Part shown: piece by piece, positions 1,144 to 29,584 of the stretch
Layout of the letters: the number at the start of each line of letters is the position of its first letter
Numbering within the stretch: position 1 is the stretch's first letter
Assembly: GCA_030158485.1 (NCBI GenBank)
Contig: JAOASS010000015.1
Location: 6,760-61,313, forward strand
Reading direction: 5' to 3'
Source of the DNA: Pseudobdellovibrionaceae bacterium
GTDB taxonomy: Bacteria > Bdellovibrionota > Bdellovibrionia > Bdellovibrionales > Bdellovibrionaceae
Length of the DNA stretch: 54,554 bases
Position numbers and translations under genes: made by a program
Notes under the pieces: model-generated
Told to the model about the DNA's origin: nothing
Databases searched by the model: none
The model's input: the letters and a program-made list of their open reading frames with translations, nothing else

Positions 1144-1233
1144 TGGCGGAGAGCGAGGGATTCGAACCCTCGAGCCCCGCGAAGGGCTGCCAGTTTTCAA
1201 GACTGGTGTATTCAACCGCTCTACCAGCTCTCC
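1144..1233 (-). tRNA. tRNA-Ser (anticodon UGA)
   Basis: The minus strand folds as a class II tRNA. The acceptor stem is GGAGAGC / GCTCTCC and the anticodon stem-loop is CCAGT-CTTGAAA-ACTGG with anticodon UGA. A long variable arm (GCCCTTCGCGGGGC) is typical of serine tRNAs, the T arm contains GGTTCGAATCC, and CCA is encoded at the 3' end (1144-1146). It reads UCA and, by wobble, other UCN codons. It lies 85 nt downstream of serS on the same strand, so its cognate synthetase is its upstream neighbour. Confidence 0.95.
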
Positions 1234-1318: not shown

Positions 1319-2608
1319 CTACTGACTCGTAAGTGGGTACCATTTTTTGAGGGCGGTGGGGATTTTAATTGTACCGTCTTCTTGTTGATAATTTTCAAGA
1401 ATGGCAATGAGTGTGCGACCTACTGCTAAGCCCGAACCGTTCAATGTGTGAACAAACTGAGGCTTTCCATTTCCGCCTGGACGAAATCTAATATTCGCAC
1501 GCCTTGCTTGAAAGTCTTCGAAGTTTGAACACGATGAAATTTCTCGGTACTCTTCAGGGCCTGGCAACCAAACTTCTAAGTCGTAAGTCTTTGAAGAGCC
1601 AAAGCCCATATCACCCGTACACAAAAGCATTCGACGGTAGGGCAATTCGAGTTCTTCTAAAACTTTTTCCGCATGCGCCGTTAACTTTTCATGAGCTTCA
1701 TAGGATTTATCGGGATGTGAAAAAGTCATTAATTCCACTTTGTGAAACTGATGTTGGCGAATAAGACCTTTCGTATCACGACCATGGCTTCCAGCTTCCG
1801 ATCTAAAGCACGGTGAATAAGCACAAAATGAGATCGGCAATTCAGATTCGTTCAAAATTTCATTGGCAAAATAATTTGTAACTGGAACTTCAGCCGTTGG
1901 AATAAGAGCGTAATTTGTGCCCTCAAGATGAAATAAATCATCTTTGAATTTTGGCAATTGTGCAGTTCCAATTAAACTTTGTTGATTCACAATATAAGGT
2001 GGAATCATTTCCGTATAACCATGCTTATCACTATGTAAATCCATCATAAATTGGATGAGCGCCCTTTCTAAGCGAGCCGCCTGCCCTTTTAAAAAAGTAA
2101 ATCTTGCGCCCGTGACTTTGCCGGCCCGTTCAAAATCAAGAATCCCCAGTTTTTCACCAATTTCCCAGTGCTCTTTCGCTTTGAAATTAAATTTTCTAGG
2201 ATCGCCCACTTGTTTAATTAATTTATTATCCGCAGCCGATGTTCCCAAAGGAACTGAAGAGTGCGGCTTGTTTGGCAAATACAGCGCTAAATTATAAACA
2301 TCCGAATCAATAGCCGCAGCGTGGGCTTCTAATTTTTTAACTTCTGCTGATAGCTGACCCATTTCTTCAATGAGTTTTGAAGCATCTTGTCCTTCGCGCT
2401 TCATTTTGGCGATATCACCGCTGACTTTATTTTGCTTTGCTTTTTCAGTTTCAGCTTTCGTGAAAATTTCTTTTCGTTTTTTATTGAGCTCTAAAACTTT
2501 ATCTAAAGTGTCATTTGATTCACCACGATTAGATAAAGACTTTTTATATTCATCGATGAAAGATGTCCCATTTTCATTCTTTCTATCGAATAACTTGATA
2601 TCAATCAT
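1319..2608 (-). CDS. serS: Seryl-tRNA synthetase
   Basis: SerRS charges tRNA-Ser with serine in the cytoplasm. The product is 429 residues, normal for the family. It has an N-terminal coiled-coil arm (roughly residues 30-100, rich in Lys and Glu) that recognises the tRNA-Ser long arm, then a class II catalytic core. The core shows motif 2 ([15 protein letters not shown]) and motif 3 ([11 protein letters not shown] near the C-terminus). The ATG at 2608 is preferred to an in-frame TTG five codons upstream, because that TTG overlaps the GGAG that serves 2608. The tRNA-Ser(UGA) gene lies directly downstream on the same strand. Confidence 0.96.
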
Positions 2609-2674
2609 CTGCAAAATCTCCAAAAATCTAAGAAAATAAATTTAAGTCTCATTTAATTTTCAGGCCCTGTAAGG

Positions 2675-18743: not shown

Positions 18744-20783
<2,040 letters not shown>

Positions 20784-20799
20784 AATCGCACGCAAAAGA

Positions 20800-21018
20800 C
20801 TAAATATGGTCAATTACGATATCGCGATCCATGACGGTTTTTCTTCCATCTTGTTTCGCTTGTTCGATACCTTTCATACAAAGCTTTTCAACTGCTTTGC
20901 TAAGTATCTCTACTGTTGCGGCAGAAGTATTCATTCCACCTTTTTCTTTAATCAGTTTTTTTACTTTGCTCGTGACTACCAAAACTTCAGCCCCTGAGCC
21001 TTCTGTTGAATCATCCAT
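20800..21018 (-). CDS. Single-domain bacterial histone (histone-fold DNA-binding protein)
   Basis: The 72-residue product reads as one histone fold: alpha-1 about 16-26 (TSKVKKLIKEK), a long alpha-2 about 32-57 (SAATVEILSKAVEKLCMKGI), loop 2 with GRKTVM (58-63) and a short alpha-3 about 63-71 (DRDIVIDHI). Arg 59 and Asp 66 have the seven-residue spacing of the histone R-D clamp, and RKT matches the archaeal loop-2 sequence. The first 13 residues are an acidic extension. Known single-domain histones of Bdellovibrio bind DNA and are major chromatin proteins; by analogy this one should form dimers on DNA. GGAGG lies 5 nt before the ATG. It stands alone between ligA and a phosphoesterase. Confidence 0.88.
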   Translation of the reverse strand: MDDSTEGSGAEVLVVTSKVKKLIKEKGGMNTSAATVEILSKAVEKLCMKGIEQAKQDGRKTVMDRDIVIDHI

Positions 21019-21088
21019 TGAATCCTCCGTGTCAGAACTTCTATATCAGATATAAAGAGTTTCCCGAGTAATTATCAGTCTGACAATG

Positions 21089-22534
21089 TTATGCCTGAGT
21101 TACGTCGCTGCGCGGCTTAATATTTTTCTCAAATTTAAGCAGCTCAGCGCGGCGGCCGGCCTCTTTTGAAGCTTCGTGGGGGCTAATCCAAATAAAGTTT
21201 CTTTGCTCTATTGGTTTTTTATACTCAATGTCTTCAAAAGCAGGGGACCACGTCCCAGAATTTAAATGTTCCACCGCTCCGATAATTTCATGTCGCGTAT
21301 GATGTGTGTGCCCATAAATTACTCTTTTAACTTTTGTAATGACAGCTGTCATAGCTAAAATTCTGTCGTCAGGCTCTTTATAAGAAGAAACCATCGACAT
21401 CACCGACCGAGAGTAAAAAAGAAAAAATGGTAAAAACAATGTCGCCGGAAGAAAAGACCAAAAAAGGGAAATCCCAAAAGCAGCTTTAAGTGCTGTAAAA
21501 ATATAGAAAATAATCACTAAAGCTAAAATAATTAAAAATGCACGATCAAGCCACAATTCACGCGCAATTAAAATCGGATTTGATGAAGCTGGCGGAACAA
21601 TCAGCTCCTTCATTTCGCGAATCATACGAGGTTCTGCGTTGGCTTTTTCTGCCATTTTTTGAATTCGATCTTCAATTGTAAAAGCATTCCTAAGGGGAGC
21701 CGCAATTCGATCTTGTACTGTTCTTTGTAATGTTAAAACAGCACCGCCAAACCATGTCAGCACCAGAAGCGGTTGCGCTCTTGCCATATATCGCAGAAAA
21801 ATAACGACGTAATCTTTCATTGTCATAATATAATTGTTATCGGTATGAGGATTAAAAAAACCTAGTCCGTTCATAATATATCGACAGGCAATATTGCCGA
21901 AAGGTAACTTAAGATAAATATTATTATAACCTTTCACAAATGGATTTACAGGATCTTCGCACTGACAATAAGGATCATACTGGTTGCCATGCTCAACTAA
22001 TGTGTCTTGATTGCTAATGTAAAACCATTCTACAAATCTGACTTTTTCTTGATCTCGCGGCAATAGCTTTAATTGTTCCCGTATTTCAGCTTGAACATCA
22101 GGAAAATGAAGTTCTAAATCATGATTTCCAATAACAAATATAACTTTATTTCCCCTTTTGATAAAACTTCCAAGCGCTTGCACAAACTCTTGGTGGTCTT
22201 TTAAAATCTTTCTAATTTTATACTTCGCTTTATCAGACTTGGGCTCAAGTCCACGTTTTTTTTCTAACCAAGAAACTCTGAATGTCGGCTCATGGGGGAT
22301 CGAGACCACGCTGTCAAAATCAAAAATATCCCCGTTTAATATTAACTCAACACTTTGTCCCAGGGCTCTTTCTTCTATGTGTTTTAAAAAATCAGCCAAA
22401 ATATCATCGAAAAAAAATTGCTTGGTTTTATATTTTTTCCAAAGCGGATATTTTGTATTAACAGGCTCTTCTTCTGTTAAGTGTAAATCACTAATAATGG
22501 CCGTATGAGTAGAGTACTTAAATATGTCCGACAT
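21089..22534 (-). CDS. Membrane-associated metallophosphoesterase
   Basis: The 481-residue product carries the calcineurin-like metal-binding blocks in order: ISDLHL (about 15-20), NGDIFDFDS (about 65), GNHDLELH (about 137) and, after a long insertion, YGHTHHTRHE (about 417). The insertion of about 200 residues holds two or three hydrophobic stretches (about 245-262, 330-350 and 355-375), so the enzyme is probably membrane-embedded. The first half resembles LpxH-like enzymes, but the long insert makes the substrate uncertain. It is divergent from murD with a 40-bp gap that must hold both promoters. A GAAGG lies very close to the ATG. Confidence 0.82.
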   Translation of the reverse strand: MSDIFKYSTHTAIISDLHLTEEEPVNTKYPLWKKYKTKQFFFDDILADFLKHIEERALGQSVELILNGDIFDFDSVVSIPHEPTFRVSWLEKKRGLEPKSDKAKYKIRKILKDHQEFVQALGSFIKRGNKVIFVIGNHDLELHFPDVQAEIREQLKLLPRDQEKVRFVEWFYISNQDTLVEHGNQYDPYCQCEDPVNPFVKGYNNIYLKLPFGNIACRYIMNGLGFFNPHTDNNYIMTMKDYVVIFLRYMARAQPLLVLTWFGGAVLTLQRTVQDRIAAPLRNAFTIEDRIQKMAEKANAEPRMIREMKELIVPPASSNPILIARELWLDRAFLIILALVIIFYIFTALKAAFGISLFWSFLPATLFLPFFLFYSRSVMSMVSSYKEPDDRILAMTAVITKVKRVIYGHTHHTRHEIIGAVEHLNSGTWSPAFEDIEYKKPIEQRNFIWISPHEASKEAGRRAELLKFEKNIKPRSDVTQA

Positions 22535-22574: not shown

Positions 22575-23825
22575 ATGAAAATGAAATCTCCTTTTCTTAT
22601 TGTAGGTTTGGGCAAAAGTGGTCTAGCGGCAAAGCGACTTTTGCTTTTATTGGGAATAAATGAAGACCAAATTAAAACTTTTGATGCTAAAGTGACTTCT
22701 GCTGACTTTTCTCAATCTGAAGATTTTGATTCATTCAATCCTGGAACCTTAGTTGTTTCTCCAGGATTTCCACTTAAAACAGCTTGGCTACAAAGTCTTA
22801 TAAATTCTGGCAGTCACTTAACCAGTGAGTTGACTCTGGCATTAGAAAACATGAGCACAGAAAAAATTATCGGAATCACGGGCTCGATGGGTAAAAGCAC
22901 AACAACAACTTTGTTGGGTCTAGGTGCTCAAGCTTTTACAAATCAAGTTTTTACAGGTGGAAACTTAGGCACACCTCTTGCCGATTATGCTGCAGATGTT
23001 TTAGAAAAAAAACGAATGACTGCTGAATGGGTTATCCTCGAGCTTTCAAGTTATCAATTAGAAAATGCGAATTCATTAAAAGTAGAATTAGGTTTGTTAA
23101 CAGCGTTGTCACCTAATCACCTTGAACGCTATGTTAGCTTAGATGAATATTATGAAACAAAGTGGTCATTAAAAAATCGCTGCAAAAAAGCTTTCTTACT
23201 AAATTATGATAGTCCTGAAATAGAACGCTGGTGTAGTACAAGACTTGATTCGATCTGTGGACCTGTTACCGCAAAAGACTATGATTTTGAAGATGCCAAA
23301 CTCATCGGAAACCATAATAAGCAAAATTTAGCTCTTGCTTTTTCAACAGCTGATTTCTTAAAATGGCCAGATAGTTCTCTCGAAGCCATGAAAAATTACT
23401 GCGGACTTGAACACCGTATTGAATTTGTAAATTCAAAAAATGGTATTCAGTATATCAACGACAGTAAAGCGACAACAATTGAAAGTGTTTTGGCAGCAGT
23501 GGACGCTTGCCTACCACTGGTTTCGGCAGATGGACTTCTTCACTTGTTTGTTGGTGGTCGAGATAAGAATCTTCCATGGGCTGAATTGGGACAATTAAGA
23601 AAACGTTCAAAAATTGTTTATCATTTTTTTGGTGAATGTGGTCAATTAGCACAGGGAAAATCTGGTCTGCACGGCAGCATTTCGGTCACTCTTAAAACTC
23701 TGACTTCTACATTTCATGCGAAGTCAGGTGACGTTGTTTTGCTAAGTCCCGGCGGATCAAGCTTAGACGAATTCAAAAACTTCGAAGATCGAGGTGATTT
23801 CTTTAAAAAATGGGCTTCATCTTAA
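22575..23825 (+). CDS. murD: UDP-N-acetylmuramoyl-L-alanine--D-glutamate ligase
   Basis: MurD adds D-Glu to UDP-MurNAc-L-Ala in the cytoplasm, an early step of peptidoglycan synthesis. The 416-residue product has the Rossmann-like N-domain (FLIVGLGKSGLAAK), the ATP P-loop of Mur ligases (GITGSMGKSTTT, about 100-111), the YINDSKATTIES block and the C-terminal domain ending in SPGGSSLDEF. It lies alone, far from any division and cell wall cluster. Its stop overlaps the stop of the convergent gene. A second in-frame ATG two codons later is an alternative start. Confidence 0.94.
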   Translation: MKMKSPFLIVGLGKSGLAAKRLLLLLGINEDQIKTFDAKVTSADFSQSEDFDSFNPGTLVVSPGFPLKTAWLQSLINSGSHLTSELTLALENMSTEKIIGITGSMGKSTTTTLLGLGAQAFTNQVFTGGNLGTPLADYAADVLEKKRMTAEWVILELSSYQLENANSLKVELGLLTALSPNHLERYVSLDEYYETKWSLKNRCKKAFLLNYDSPEIERWCSTRLDSICGPVTAKDYDFEDAKLIGNHNKQNLALAFSTADFLKWPDSSLEAMKNYCGLEHRIEFVNSKNGIQYINDSKATTIESVLAAVDACLPLVSADGLLHLFVGGRDKNLPWAELGQLRKRSKIVYHFFGECGQLAQGKSGLHGSISVTLKTLTSTFHAKSGDVVLLSPGGSSLDEFKNFEDRGDFFKKWASS

Positions 23826-25474
23826 AGCTGGATGATGTTTAAAACATTTGGAATTGTCGGTAAATAAATAGAACGCACAGTTTTTTCACCTGCTGATTGC
23901 ACTGCGTATTCTATGACGCTTTCTTCCGGATCTAAAATAAAAAATCCGCCACCAGCAGATCCAAAATTTCCTTCTACCACTTGCCCTTCTGAATCGAAAT
24001 AAATAACTTGAGCTGTTTTTGAACCAACAGCTTCTACTCTAAATGACTTTTGTGCACCTAAACCTAGAATAATCTTATTTCTTAGAGGTTTTTCAAGTTT
24101 CGCTTGTAGCAAAATAGTTTCAACCCATTCGCTCGTCACCATTGGAAAATTGTAAAGAGCTTCACCTGGTGGCAACACATATTGTGCCGTCATATATTTT
24201 TTATTTAAAGGATTAACAAGCGCATAAGCTGTGTCTAAATTATCTTGAACTGCTACATCTGCTTGTCCGTTTTCAATGACAATATCTTCTTCATGATTTT
24301 GTAAAGTTGCAACAACGCTTTGAGAGGTTTTATTAATCAAATCGTAAGCGGCAATTCGAACTGGACGACGCCTATCAGTTGCATCAATATCTGCAATTGA
24401 TAGCATGTTTTTACGAACAGAAATATTTTGAAATCCCATAAACTTATTTCCCTGGGTGGCTCTTATTGCGTATTCACCATCTGGAACTCCGACCACTGTA
24501 TAAAGACCGTGCGATGCTGTGAATTTTTGATTTGGGTCTGGAATATAAAACTCATTCAAATAAAGAGGGCGCAAATCATCACGACCTTCAACTTCCACTT
24601 GGGCGCCTGCTACAGAGCGCCCTTCATTTGTTGTTCGACCCCAAACTGTTCCTCCGGATACTTCAGCCGAAGAATAGCCGGCATCCTGTGCTAATTTTTT
24701 TAAGGAATCATTAGCTTTATTGTTAGGTATCATCACTCCGCGTTTATGAGTTTGATTGTTTGCCACAAGCCTTGTTGCTGGATGATTGGGTGTCGTAATC
24801 GTCATCACCACATGAGAGCCTGAATCTTCTAAATTGTTGACTGCAGTTTCAAATTTGGCAGCAAGATCTTTTGCTTCAGAACTGTCATAATCATAAAAAT
24901 CAATTACTCGCGCTCTGCCAAATGATCCTGTCTTGGACTGCGTTTGGATCTGAGACTTCTCGATATTTTTTAATCTATCAATATTGGCTGGTGCAGGTGG
25001 CTCAGTATACTTATCAGAAAAAGCGAGAATGTCTTTATACCGTGAAACGGAAAGCATCGGTCCCGCAGTCGTTGATTTATTAATACGATCAAGTGAAAAG
25101 CATCCTTCGCCAATAATTTCATGTTGGCTTCCGCGCAATCTTGCACACACATGCCCTTCTGCATTTGAAAACTTGATTGCATAGGTTCCTTTTTCTATGT
25201 CAACATCGCCATATTCAACTACTTGACCTTTATTTTCTCGGTGAATTTCTATGCGATTATTATCTGTTAACGCCAGTCCCTGCTTCAGCTCTAAAGGTCC
25301 GGATAACGTTAGCGCTACCGTGCTTTTTGAGTAGTCAATAATGACTGATGGTCTAACTTGCGAAACTTGGTGCACACTTGAGTTTCTGTTAAGAACAACA
25401 GGCTTTCCAATAACTTCATTCAAGTTAGCAAATTTCAAAGTCTCAAGTTTTTCTTGTGCTGTAGGCCTTTGCAA
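23822..25474 (-). CDS. Large exported protein of unknown function; true start lies upstream
   Basis: The stretch shown has 550 codons starting at an in-frame TTG. It looks beta-rich throughout; about residues 270-365 (GTVWGRTTNEGRSVAGAQVEVEG ... VVGVPDGEYAIRA) resemble a carboxypeptidase-regulatory-like (CarboxypepD_reg) domain. No catalytic motif was found. The same frame stays open another 51 codons upstream, to a TAA at about 25634. That part encodes a hydrophobic signal-peptide-like segment (LIQLLVIYFTAFAICTFS), but no ATG, GTG or TTG precedes it in frame. An ATG at 25679 would feed into it after a one-base shift in an A5 run. So either the start is unconventional, the gene is frameshifted, or there is a base error. 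Confidence 0.7.
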   Translation of the reverse strand: MQRPTAQEKLETLKFANLNEVIGKPVVLNRNSSVHQVSQVRPSVIIDYSKSTVALTLSGPLELKQGLALTDNNRIEIHRENKGQVVEYGDVDIEKGTYAIKFSNAEGHVCARLRGSQHEIIGEGCFSLDRINKSTTAGPMLSVSRYKDILAFSDKYTEPPAPANIDRLKNIEKSQIQTQSKTGSFGRARVIDFYDYDSSEAKDLAAKFETAVNNLEDSGSHVVMTITTPNHPATRLVANNQTHKRGVMIPNNKANDSLKKLAQDAGYSSAEVSGGTVWGRTTNEGRSVAGAQVEVEGRDDLRPLYLNEFYIPDPNQKFTASHGLYTVVGVPDGEYAIRATQGNKFMGFQNISVRKNMLSIADIDATDRRRPVRIAAYDLINKTSQSVVATLQNHEEDIVIENGQADVAVQDNLDTAYALVNPLNKKYMTAQYVLPPGEALYNFPMVTSEWVETILLQAKLEKPLRNKIILGLGAQKSFRVEAVGSKTAQVIYFDSEGQVVEGNFGSAGGGFFILDPEESVIEYAVQSAGEKTVRSIYLPTIPNVLNIIQL

Positions 25475-27255: not shown

Positions 27256-27947
27256 ATTTTAAGAAGGTCTTTCATTTCAAAATATCCGCTTTTATAATGC
27301 AAAATTTGCTGAGATGCCCACATTGCACCTTTAGCAAAGACTCTTCTATTTAAAGCTGTATGTTCAATTGATATAATTTCCTCGTCAGAAAAAGCTTGAA
27401 TTCGATGAATACCATAAACACCGCCGGCTCTGATAGAAAGTGGTGCCGGAATGTTTTTCTGACCCAGTACTTCAATTAGTTTTTTTTGTAATAAAAGAGC
27501 CGTGCCGCTAGGCTTATCTTTTTTTAATTTATGATGAACTTCGTCAATTTGGAAATCAAAGTCTTGATAAGAATCAAAAGCCTCCAACATTTTGGTTATC
27601 AAAGCGATTCCCACACTCATATTGGGGGCCCAAAAAACACTTGTTTTTTTTGCATATTTTTTGATTTTTTCTAACTGATTGGCACTAAGCCCCGTCGTGC
27701 CAGAAACAAGAGGCGTCGGATACTGAATCAGTTGATCCAATAAACGATCGAGTGCTTCCGGTGTTGAAAAATCAATCCAAACATCGGGTCGCTGGGACTT
27801 TTTAGATTTCAAATATTGAGTGAGGTTCTTCGATGTGATTTCTGCCACAACGTCATGGCCTGCACTCAAGGCTAAGCTTTTAACTTCTTGGCCCATTCTT
27901 CCGGTTGCACCAACAATTCCATATTTTAATTTACGAATTGATTTCAT
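27252..27947 (-). CDS. dapB: 4-hydroxy-tetrahydrodipicolinate reductase
   Basis: DapB reduces the DapA product with NAD(P)H on the way to diaminopimelate and lysine. The 231-residue product is on the short side of the family. It has the nucleotide-binding loop GIVGATGRMGQEV (10-22), the conserved DEVHHKLKKDKPSGTA block (catalytic His-His and Lys) and the final RAGGVYGIH. It overlaps the end of dapA by 4 nt and the next gene by 4 nt. Confidence 0.93.
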   Translation of the reverse strand: MKSIRKLKYGIVGATGRMGQEVKSLALSAGHDVVAEITSKNLTQYLKSKKSQRPDVWIDFSTPEALDRLLDQLIQYPTPLVSGTTGLSANQLEKIKKYAKKTSVFWAPNMSVGIALITKMLEAFDSYQDFDFQIDEVHHKLKKDKPSGTALLLQKKLIEVLGQKNIPAPLSIRAGGVYGIHRIQAFSDEEIISIEHTALNRRVFAKGAMWASQQILHYKSGYFEMKDLLKI

Positions 27948-28805
27948 GGGATTAAACCCTTCTGTTGAAAATTCTTTTTAAGCCTTTCCACGGTCGCCTG
28001 ACTCGCCTCGATAAGTGGCAGCCGCAGAACTGCAGATTCAATAATCCCGATGAGCTCGAGGCTTTTTTTAACAGGTATTGGATTTGACTCAACATACAAT
28101 GAATCAATCAGTTCTTTGTACTGGGCCTGAAGCTCTTGTGCCGCTTTTATATTTCCACTTTTAACAAGTTCAGTTATTTTATTGAAAACTTCTGGCAAAA
28201 TGTGTGATCCGACAGAAATAATTCCATGTCCACCAAAAGATAAATAATCTGCATAAGTTCCATCATCACCCGACAGTCTGATAAAACCCGGTTTAGTTTG
28301 TTTAGAAACTAACTTTGCTGTTTCCATGTCTGCGGTTGCATCTTTAATTCCAATAATTCCTTGAATAAAAGAAAGCTCAACGATGGTTTCGACGGACATC
28401 ATACAACAAAACCGGTGCGCCTGATTCTTCAGCTACTTTTTTAAAGTGCTGAAACAAACCCCTTTGCATTGGTTTATTATAATAGGGAACAACAACTAAA
28501 GCCGCATCTGCCTTCCAAGATGCTGCAAGCTTTGTATTTTTAATTGTTTTAGCAGTCGAATTCGATCCCGTTCCTAAAATCATGATCGTGTTTTCAGGAG
28601 CTGTCGCCTTAACAATTTGCCAAATATCTTTTAGTTCTGATTCTTCTAAAGTCGGACTTTCGGCTGTTGTACCGTTAATCACAAATCCTTTGATTCCTTT
28701 TTTAACTTGGTCCTTTACAAGATTCTCAAGTGATTTAAAATCAACTTCCATATTGGATTTGAATGGAGTTATAAGTGCTGTTATAACTCCTTCTATTTTT
28801 TTCAT
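27944..28805 (-). pseudogene. dapA: Dihydrodipicolinate synthase gene broken by a small deletion/frameshift
   Basis: Two frames together encode DapA. The 5' part (28805 to about 28395) gives residues 1-137, including GTTAES and the catalytic Tyr in PVLLYDV. It then shifts frame and stops at 28377 after six foreign residues. The 3' part, open from an ATG at 28402 to 27944, resumes at SVETIVEL and contains the Schiff-base Lys in GIKDAT. Homologues have about eight residues (PGRTG type) between the two, so roughly 26 bp seem to be missing. The start at 28805 has GGAG 6 nt upstream and overlaps the dapF stop (ATGA). It could be a true pseudogene, two interacting half-proteins, or an assembly error. 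Confidence 0.8.
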
Positions 28806-29584
28806 AAAATACTCCAGTCTGCTAATTTTTCCACAGGGCCCGTCATCATCCAACCCGTTTCTTGAAAAACAACACTAAGCAATCCACCTGGCATCGAAAT
28901 TTCAAATTTATTTCTTTCTTGAGCTTGATTTTTCCACCAGACTGCTGCTGCCAAAGCGCCTGTACCACAAGCTTTTGTAAAGTCTTCGACTCCACGCTCA
29001 TAAGTAACAGCTTTCATTTTATCTTCAGTTTTTTGAATCCAAGTCACATTCGAGCCCCGAATACCAAAATCTGGGTGATGGCGTAATTTTTTTGAAGTTT
29101 CGACCCAAACATCATGGCTGAGGTTGGGCTGATTCAAGACAAAATGTGGAACGCCCGTATTACACCACAATCCGACCCACTGATTTTCATCGATTTGAAT
29201 TTTTTTCGAGGCTTCCAGAATTTGAGGCCTCGGCATTAAAACCCAATTTCGATTTTCGTCGGTCCAACTTAATACTATTCCTGCTGTTGTCTCATGTTTT
29301 GAATGAATTGAATTTTTTTGAAATCTTAAAAAGCTTTGAGCACATCTAGCAGCGTTTCCACAGAATTCAGCCTCTGATCCGTCAGAGTTAAAAAAATTCC
29401 ACTTGTATTCTTGGGGGCTTTTTTCAATCAAACCCAAATAGCCATCCACTTTAAACCGCTGGCAAATTTTTTGAGCCTCTAAATTTTTAATTGCATCATT
29501 TGAATTTGTGATTTCGATTGCAAAAGTATTACCCGCACCCGACATCAACCAACCCTTATGGGTTTTTTTTTCGATTGAGGTCAT
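28802..29584 (-). CDS. dapF: Diaminopimelate epimerase
   Basis: DapF interconverts LL- and meso-diaminopimelate. The 260-residue product keeps both catalytic cysteines: FCGNAARC (Cys about 75) and TKACGTGALA (Cys about 206). It also has the N-terminal MSGAGNTF block equivalent to MHGLGNDF in other DapF proteins. The ATG at 29584 puts that block near residue 14, as in the family; an in-frame GTG at 29635 would add 17 residues. The 5' end overlaps the small lipoprotein gene by 29 nt in another frame, and the stop overlaps dapA (ATGA). Confidence 0.94.
   Translation of the reverse strand: MTSIEKKTHKGWLMSGAGNTFAIEITNSNDAIKNLEAQKICQRFKVDGYLGLIEKSPQEYKWNFFNSDGSEAEFCGNAARCAQSFLRFQKNSIHSKHETTAGIVLSWTDENRNWVLMPRPQILEASKKIQIDENQWVGLWCNTGVPHFVLNQPNLSHDVWVETSKKLRHHPDFGIRGSNVTWIQKTEDKMKAVTYERGVEDFTKACGTGALAAAVWWKNQAQERNKFEISMPGGLLSVVFQETGWMMTGPVEKLADWSIL

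Follow-up and report, generated by a model that had tools for sequence, protein, structure and literature searches.

The closest described relative of the protein studied here is the histone Bd0055 (HBb) of Bdellovibrio bacteriovorus (8cmp, 8fvx, 8fw7, 9ezz, 9f0e; PMC10627809, PMC11317129). HBb is a major nucleoid protein that binds DNA without sequence preference, and attempts to delete it have failed (PMC10627809, PMC11317129). Its mode of binding is debated. One crystal study described end-on binding, in which straight DNA is encased in a filament (PMC10627809), and data from solution, two further crystal forms, single-molecule and circularisation experiments indicated that HBb bends DNA as a dimer (PMC11317129). 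A short alpha-3 and a short alpha-2 define the alpha-3 histone superfamily (PMC11390915), and alpha-3 of HBb is a single turn (PMC11317129). The face-to-face (FtF) histones HLp of Leptospira perolatii (9qt0) and HTkC (9f2c) share with the protein described below membership of this superfamily, the short alpha-3 and a related DNA-binding loop. Archaeal HMfA and HMfB also have the histone fold, the KT motif and the RD clamp, but differ in their longer alpha-2, three-turn alpha-3, tetramerisation His, sprocket Arg and wrapping of DNA (PMC10627809).

Identity of the histone encoded beside ligA

We analysed a stretch of 54,554 nucleotides of a Pseudobdellovibrionaceae genome, hereafter the window. 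An initial annotation had proposed that it encodes a 72-residue bacterial histone with a single domain, a version of the one known from Bdellovibrio. The open reading frame, the PF00808 score and the best matches by both sequence and fold, all to HBb, confirmed that positions 20800-21018 of the minus strand are a genuine gene for such a protein (MDDSTEGSGAEVLVVTSKVKKLIKEKGGMNTSAATVEILSKAVEKLCMKGIEQAKQDGRKTVMDRDIVIDHI, 72 aa; Table 1). When the gene was compared with the ortholog of a same-genus genome (G033), pS was 0.81, which is near saturation, and pN was 0.055 over 62 codons, indicating strong purifying selection on the protein and excluding a chance ORF. No sigma-70-like promoter was found around the gene in a promoter scan.

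The protein matched the Pfam family PF00808 (CBFD_NFYB_HMF) with 22.6 bits, above the gathering cut-off of 21.4; it matched the NCBIfam archaeal histone model too, yet under the cut-off of that model. In a phmmer search against the PDB the best matches were all HBb (8cmp, E 1.5e-28; 8fvx, E 4.1e-28), the next was an archaeal histone-fold protein (E 3e-4), and HLp was matched at E 0.011. A profile of 46 relatives matched HBb at 4e-33, well ahead of HTkC (1.6e-10) and HLp (2.4e-10). The AlphaFold monomer model (mean pLDDT 79.8, pTM 0.53) has the order helix, loop, long helix, loop and short helix, with alpha-1 at residues 6-27, alpha-2 at 32-56 and a one-turn alpha-3 at 64-66, and its top five structural matches in Foldseek were HBb entries. 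Agreement between the monomer model and HBb was moderate (TM 0.52-0.64, rmsd 5-6 A), possibly an effect of folding a dimer-former alone. Given these moderate TM-scores, the model backs the fold but not a precise structure.

The identity of 79-80% to HBb over the fold, at E 1.5e-28, is the close similarity to HBb that characterises bacterial dimer histones in PMC11390915. The RKTxxxD motif and the alpha-1 lysines of the HBb group are present (R59 K60 T61, D66, D57; K18, K20, K24), and alpha-2 and alpha-3 are as short as in HBb. The features of archaeal nucleosomal histones were not found: alpha-3 is one turn, and Q56 (HBb A48) stands at the position of the tetramerisation His. Judged from these comparisons, the window protein is a vertically inherited Bd0055/HBb ortholog, a 'bacterial dimer' histone of Bdellovibrionia. 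That it might instead be an FtF histone forming DNA-wrapping tetramers like HLp is hardly credible. HLp and the window protein share a one-turn alpha-3 and membership of the alpha-3 histone superfamily, and FtF histones are present in the sister class Bacteriovoracia (PMC11390915); however, HBb is far closer than HLp (E 1.5e-28 versus 0.011), identity to HLp and HTkC is about 33-34% in the structural alignment, and the C-terminal alpha-2/loop-2 Arg and Asn of the HLp tetramer are absent, their aligned positions being Q53 and D57 (HBb S45, D49).

The initial annotation had also regarded a shortened alpha-3 as peculiar to this protein and as a possible source of a new packing mode on DNA. We rejected the former, as HBb and the whole superfamily share the short alpha-3 (PMC11390915, PMC11317129), and the latter is unsupported, since HBb, whose DNA binding has been described in the literature, has the same alpha-3. 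Likewise, the suggested end-on binding rather than wrapping is a published, debated property of the HBb family (PMC10627809), not one special to the window protein.

Table 1. Histone gene, its parts and its neighbours, in window positions
Feature	Position	Strand	Remarks
HBb/Bd0055 ortholog gene	20800..21018	minus	72 aa, one histone fold
Codons 1-8 (MDDSTEGS), acidic N-terminal extension, apparently lineage-specific	20995..21018	minus	Ortholog comparison
Gly9	20992-20994	minus	At start-Met position of orthologs
GGAGG ribosome-binding site	21024..21028	minus	5 nt ahead of ATG; sequence and start survey
First part of alpha-1, predicted DNA contacts T16 S17 K18 K20 K24 (HBb T8 S9 K10 K12 K16)	20947..20973	minus	Alignment, conservation, PMC11317129
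Loop 1 and start of alpha-2, predicted DNA contacts N30 T31 S32 A33 (HBb N22 T23 S24 A25)	20920..20931	minus	Alignment, PMC11317129
Loop 2 and start of alpha-3, R59 K60 T61 V62 M63 D64 R65 D66	20821..20844	minus	RD clamp, KT motif, predicted contact R65 (HBb R57); alignment, PMC11317129
ligA, convergent downstream neighbour	18786..20783	plus	
Calcineurin-like metallophosphoesterase (PF00149), upstream neighbour	21089..22534	minus	

DNA-contact residues and expected binding

Crystals and simulations of HBb identified DNA contacts at T8, S9, K10, K12, K16, N22, T23, S24, A25, K52, T53 and R57 (PMC11317129); an HBb residue number is that of the window protein minus 8. All 12 contact positions are identical in the window protein, and most are invariant across orthologs. 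Among 59 aligned sequences of the class, the window protein included, S9, K10, K12, N22, T23, R51, K52, T53, R57 and D58 (HBb numbering) did not vary. The clamp of Arg59 and Asp66 at seven-residue spacing, pointed out in the initial annotation, aligns with R51/D58 of HBb, and the extra Asp that helps it (D49 of HBb, here D57) is kept as well. The window protein departs from HBb at E26 (A34 here), S45 (Q53), A48 (Q56) and A56 (D64), and these substitutions occur in some relatives. The residue changes A48H, S45F and I61L turned Bd0055 to DNA wrapping (PMC10627809). The window protein has Q56, Q53 and I69 at these sites, and therefore wrapping is not expected of it.

We infer dimerisation, bending, abundance and importance for growth from HBb. 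The window protein would form a homodimer through antiparallel packing of alpha-2, and this dimer would grip the DNA backbone at minor grooves with alpha-1 (T16 S17 K18 K20 K24), loop 1 (N30 T31 S32) and loop 2/alpha-3 (K60 T61 R65). As an abundant nucleoid protein it would bend DNA irrespective of sequence, and no wrapping tetramers would be expected.

The acidic N-terminal extension

Proteins of this family normally start with M-A/S-D/E-V-L-V-V-T-S-K. An acidic extension of 13 residues had been described for the window protein; the extension is present, but it comprises 8 residues (MDDSTEGS), because residues 10-15 (AEVLVV) are the ordinary N-terminus of the family. These eight residues are added relative to HBb, and they are absent from all 59 other orthologs read. 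Among these is the ortholog of the same genus (G033, MAG Ga0074139; LNEB01000015.1, L097/L032), which is 92% identical over residues 11-72 and agrees in Q53, Q56, D64 and the neighbour genes but begins MNEVLVV. A further genome of the genus (G034, 67% complete) yielded no histone match and is uninformative on the tail. Since it is missing from the 59 other orthologs, the tail looks like a recent, lineage-specific change, and we rejected the idea of a conserved regulatory feature on the same ground.

At the sequence level the tail looks real, because no start codon other than its ATG has a good ribosome-binding site; the start survey revealed no further start codon in frame upstream and none within the first ten codons. 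It is very improbable that the extension is untranslated, whether through an internal true start or through 24 extra nucleotides introduced by an assembly error. Such a reading would agree with the 59 of 59 other orthologs that begin at or near residue 9-11, with a TTG codon at residue 13 and with a genome in 23 contigs. However, a full GGAGG stands 5 nt ahead of the upstream ATG, no other ATG/GTG/TTG occurs in that region, a start at TTG-13 would remove the conserved AEV, and the 24 extra nucleotides keep the reading frame. The tail may have arisen through a 24-nt insertion behind the start codon, or an upstream start may have replaced the old one. Ahead of GCT, the stretch GAAGGCTCAGGG looks like a degenerate form of the GGAGG-and-start region that relatives have; the comparison covers two genomes of the genus, which are too few to decide between the two routes.

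Without the tail the calculated net charge is +3 and the pI 9.2; with it they are 0 and 6.6. The net charge of the fold alone spans +1 to +3 across 60 sequences. With a net charge of 0 and a pI of 6.6, the tailed protein could differ from HBb in DNA affinity. The tail has low confidence in the AlphaFold model (pLDDT <50 at residues 1-3, mean 57 at residues 1-10). It is probably a disordered appendage, which could weaken tail-mediated contacts between dimers or the affinity for DNA.

Given the three net negative charges that the tail adds and its absence from the other orthologs read, together with the N-terminal tails that dimers swap in the crystal filament of HBb (PMC10627809), the tail could make the protein a distinct HBb variant, a weaker or non-filamenting binder in which the basic ridge is shielded or the tail exchange disturbed. 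We consider this unlikely: Bd0055 without its four N-terminal residues retained DNA binding and did not switch to wrapping (PMC10627809), HBb itself lacks order in its first three residues (PMC11317129), and a tail limited to one genome gives no sign of selection for it. Since binding survived the four-residue deletion and no wrapping ensued, any effect of the added tail should be modest at most. It is quite doubtful that the recently gained acidic tail, which neutralises the net charge, also shifts the association of dimers on DNA and so makes the protein a natural tail variant of HBb, and we found no evidence that the extension alters DNA binding. Altogether, the window protein is a vertically inherited HBb ortholog and very probably a homodimeric, sequence-independent DNA-bending nucleoid protein whose recent tail has little or modest effect.

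Distribution and genomic setting

The source genome (2.48 Mb, 23 contigs, 98.3% complete) carries the histone in single copy along with four HU/IHF-family genes. No credible second PF00808 match was found in it, the only other hit being a stop-containing chance match (E 0.49). With the window protein as query, a relative was detected in 135 of the 144 class genomes, including 104 of the 106 better ones, a few of the 135 matches being only a longer or diverged histone-like ORF. No viral relatives were found among viral contigs by tblastn.

The longer proteins, which join a cysteine-rich, zinc-finger-like N-terminal part to a C-terminal histone fold, occur in relatives (L153:1225-1674 and many second matches) and are probably known Bd3044-like or ZZ-type histones; this kind is absent from the source genome, though it is the second histone in relatives. 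The diverged histone-like ORF (e.g. MSLIIVKKTKDLFKERGLKTSAEAMEALNKQFEKLCHKAADNVVADKLKTVKANHVPSLDGLL...) was observed in one family of the class, in genera with small genomes (1.4-2.0 Mb), at loci L155:1432-1695, L154, L158, L159 and L160 (genomes G126, G104, G123, G125 and G103). In these ORFs RKTVMxRD is replaced by LKTVKxxH or similar, so that the RD clamp is lost on both sides, and the standard HBb was not found in these five genomes.

The position beside ligA, noted in the initial annotation, was borne out, and the neighbourhood is that of HBb, with ligA downstream. In 53 of the 60 loci read, ligA lies downstream in convergent orientation within the stretch covered, at no more than 200 bp in 35 of 60, and in 39 of 60 a homolog of the phosphoesterase gene closely precedes the histone gene on the same strand. 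This place beside ligA is thus the usual address of the histone in the class.

Elsewhere in the window, on the minus strand, dapA (DHDPS, PF00701; 27944-28853) is broken by a frameshift into two ORFs that overlap but differ in frame, 28377-28853 covering profile positions 2-135 and 27944-28402 covering 143-288; the cause is a sequencing error or else a genuine break. A 550-residue ORF at 23822-25474 (minus) has no Pfam match, and many relatives have homologs of it, at 20-45% identity, in the same neighbourhood. The window contains a single tRNA gene, tRNA-Ser (TGA) at 1144-1233 (minus), which adjoins a seryl-tRNA synthetase-like ORF at 1319-2623 (minus), named from its sequence and not by profile search.

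Taken together, the window protein is an already characterised kind of histone, and the tail is the sole peculiarity of this copy. The role of the N-terminus of HBb in filament formation as against bending is disputed, and the tail provides a naturally occurring case for comparison, though this is a small point. The presence of a relative in 135 of 144 genomes, mostly in the same place by ligA, confirms that the histone is a conserved chromosomal fixture of Bdellovibrionia and part of the core nucleoid set of the class.
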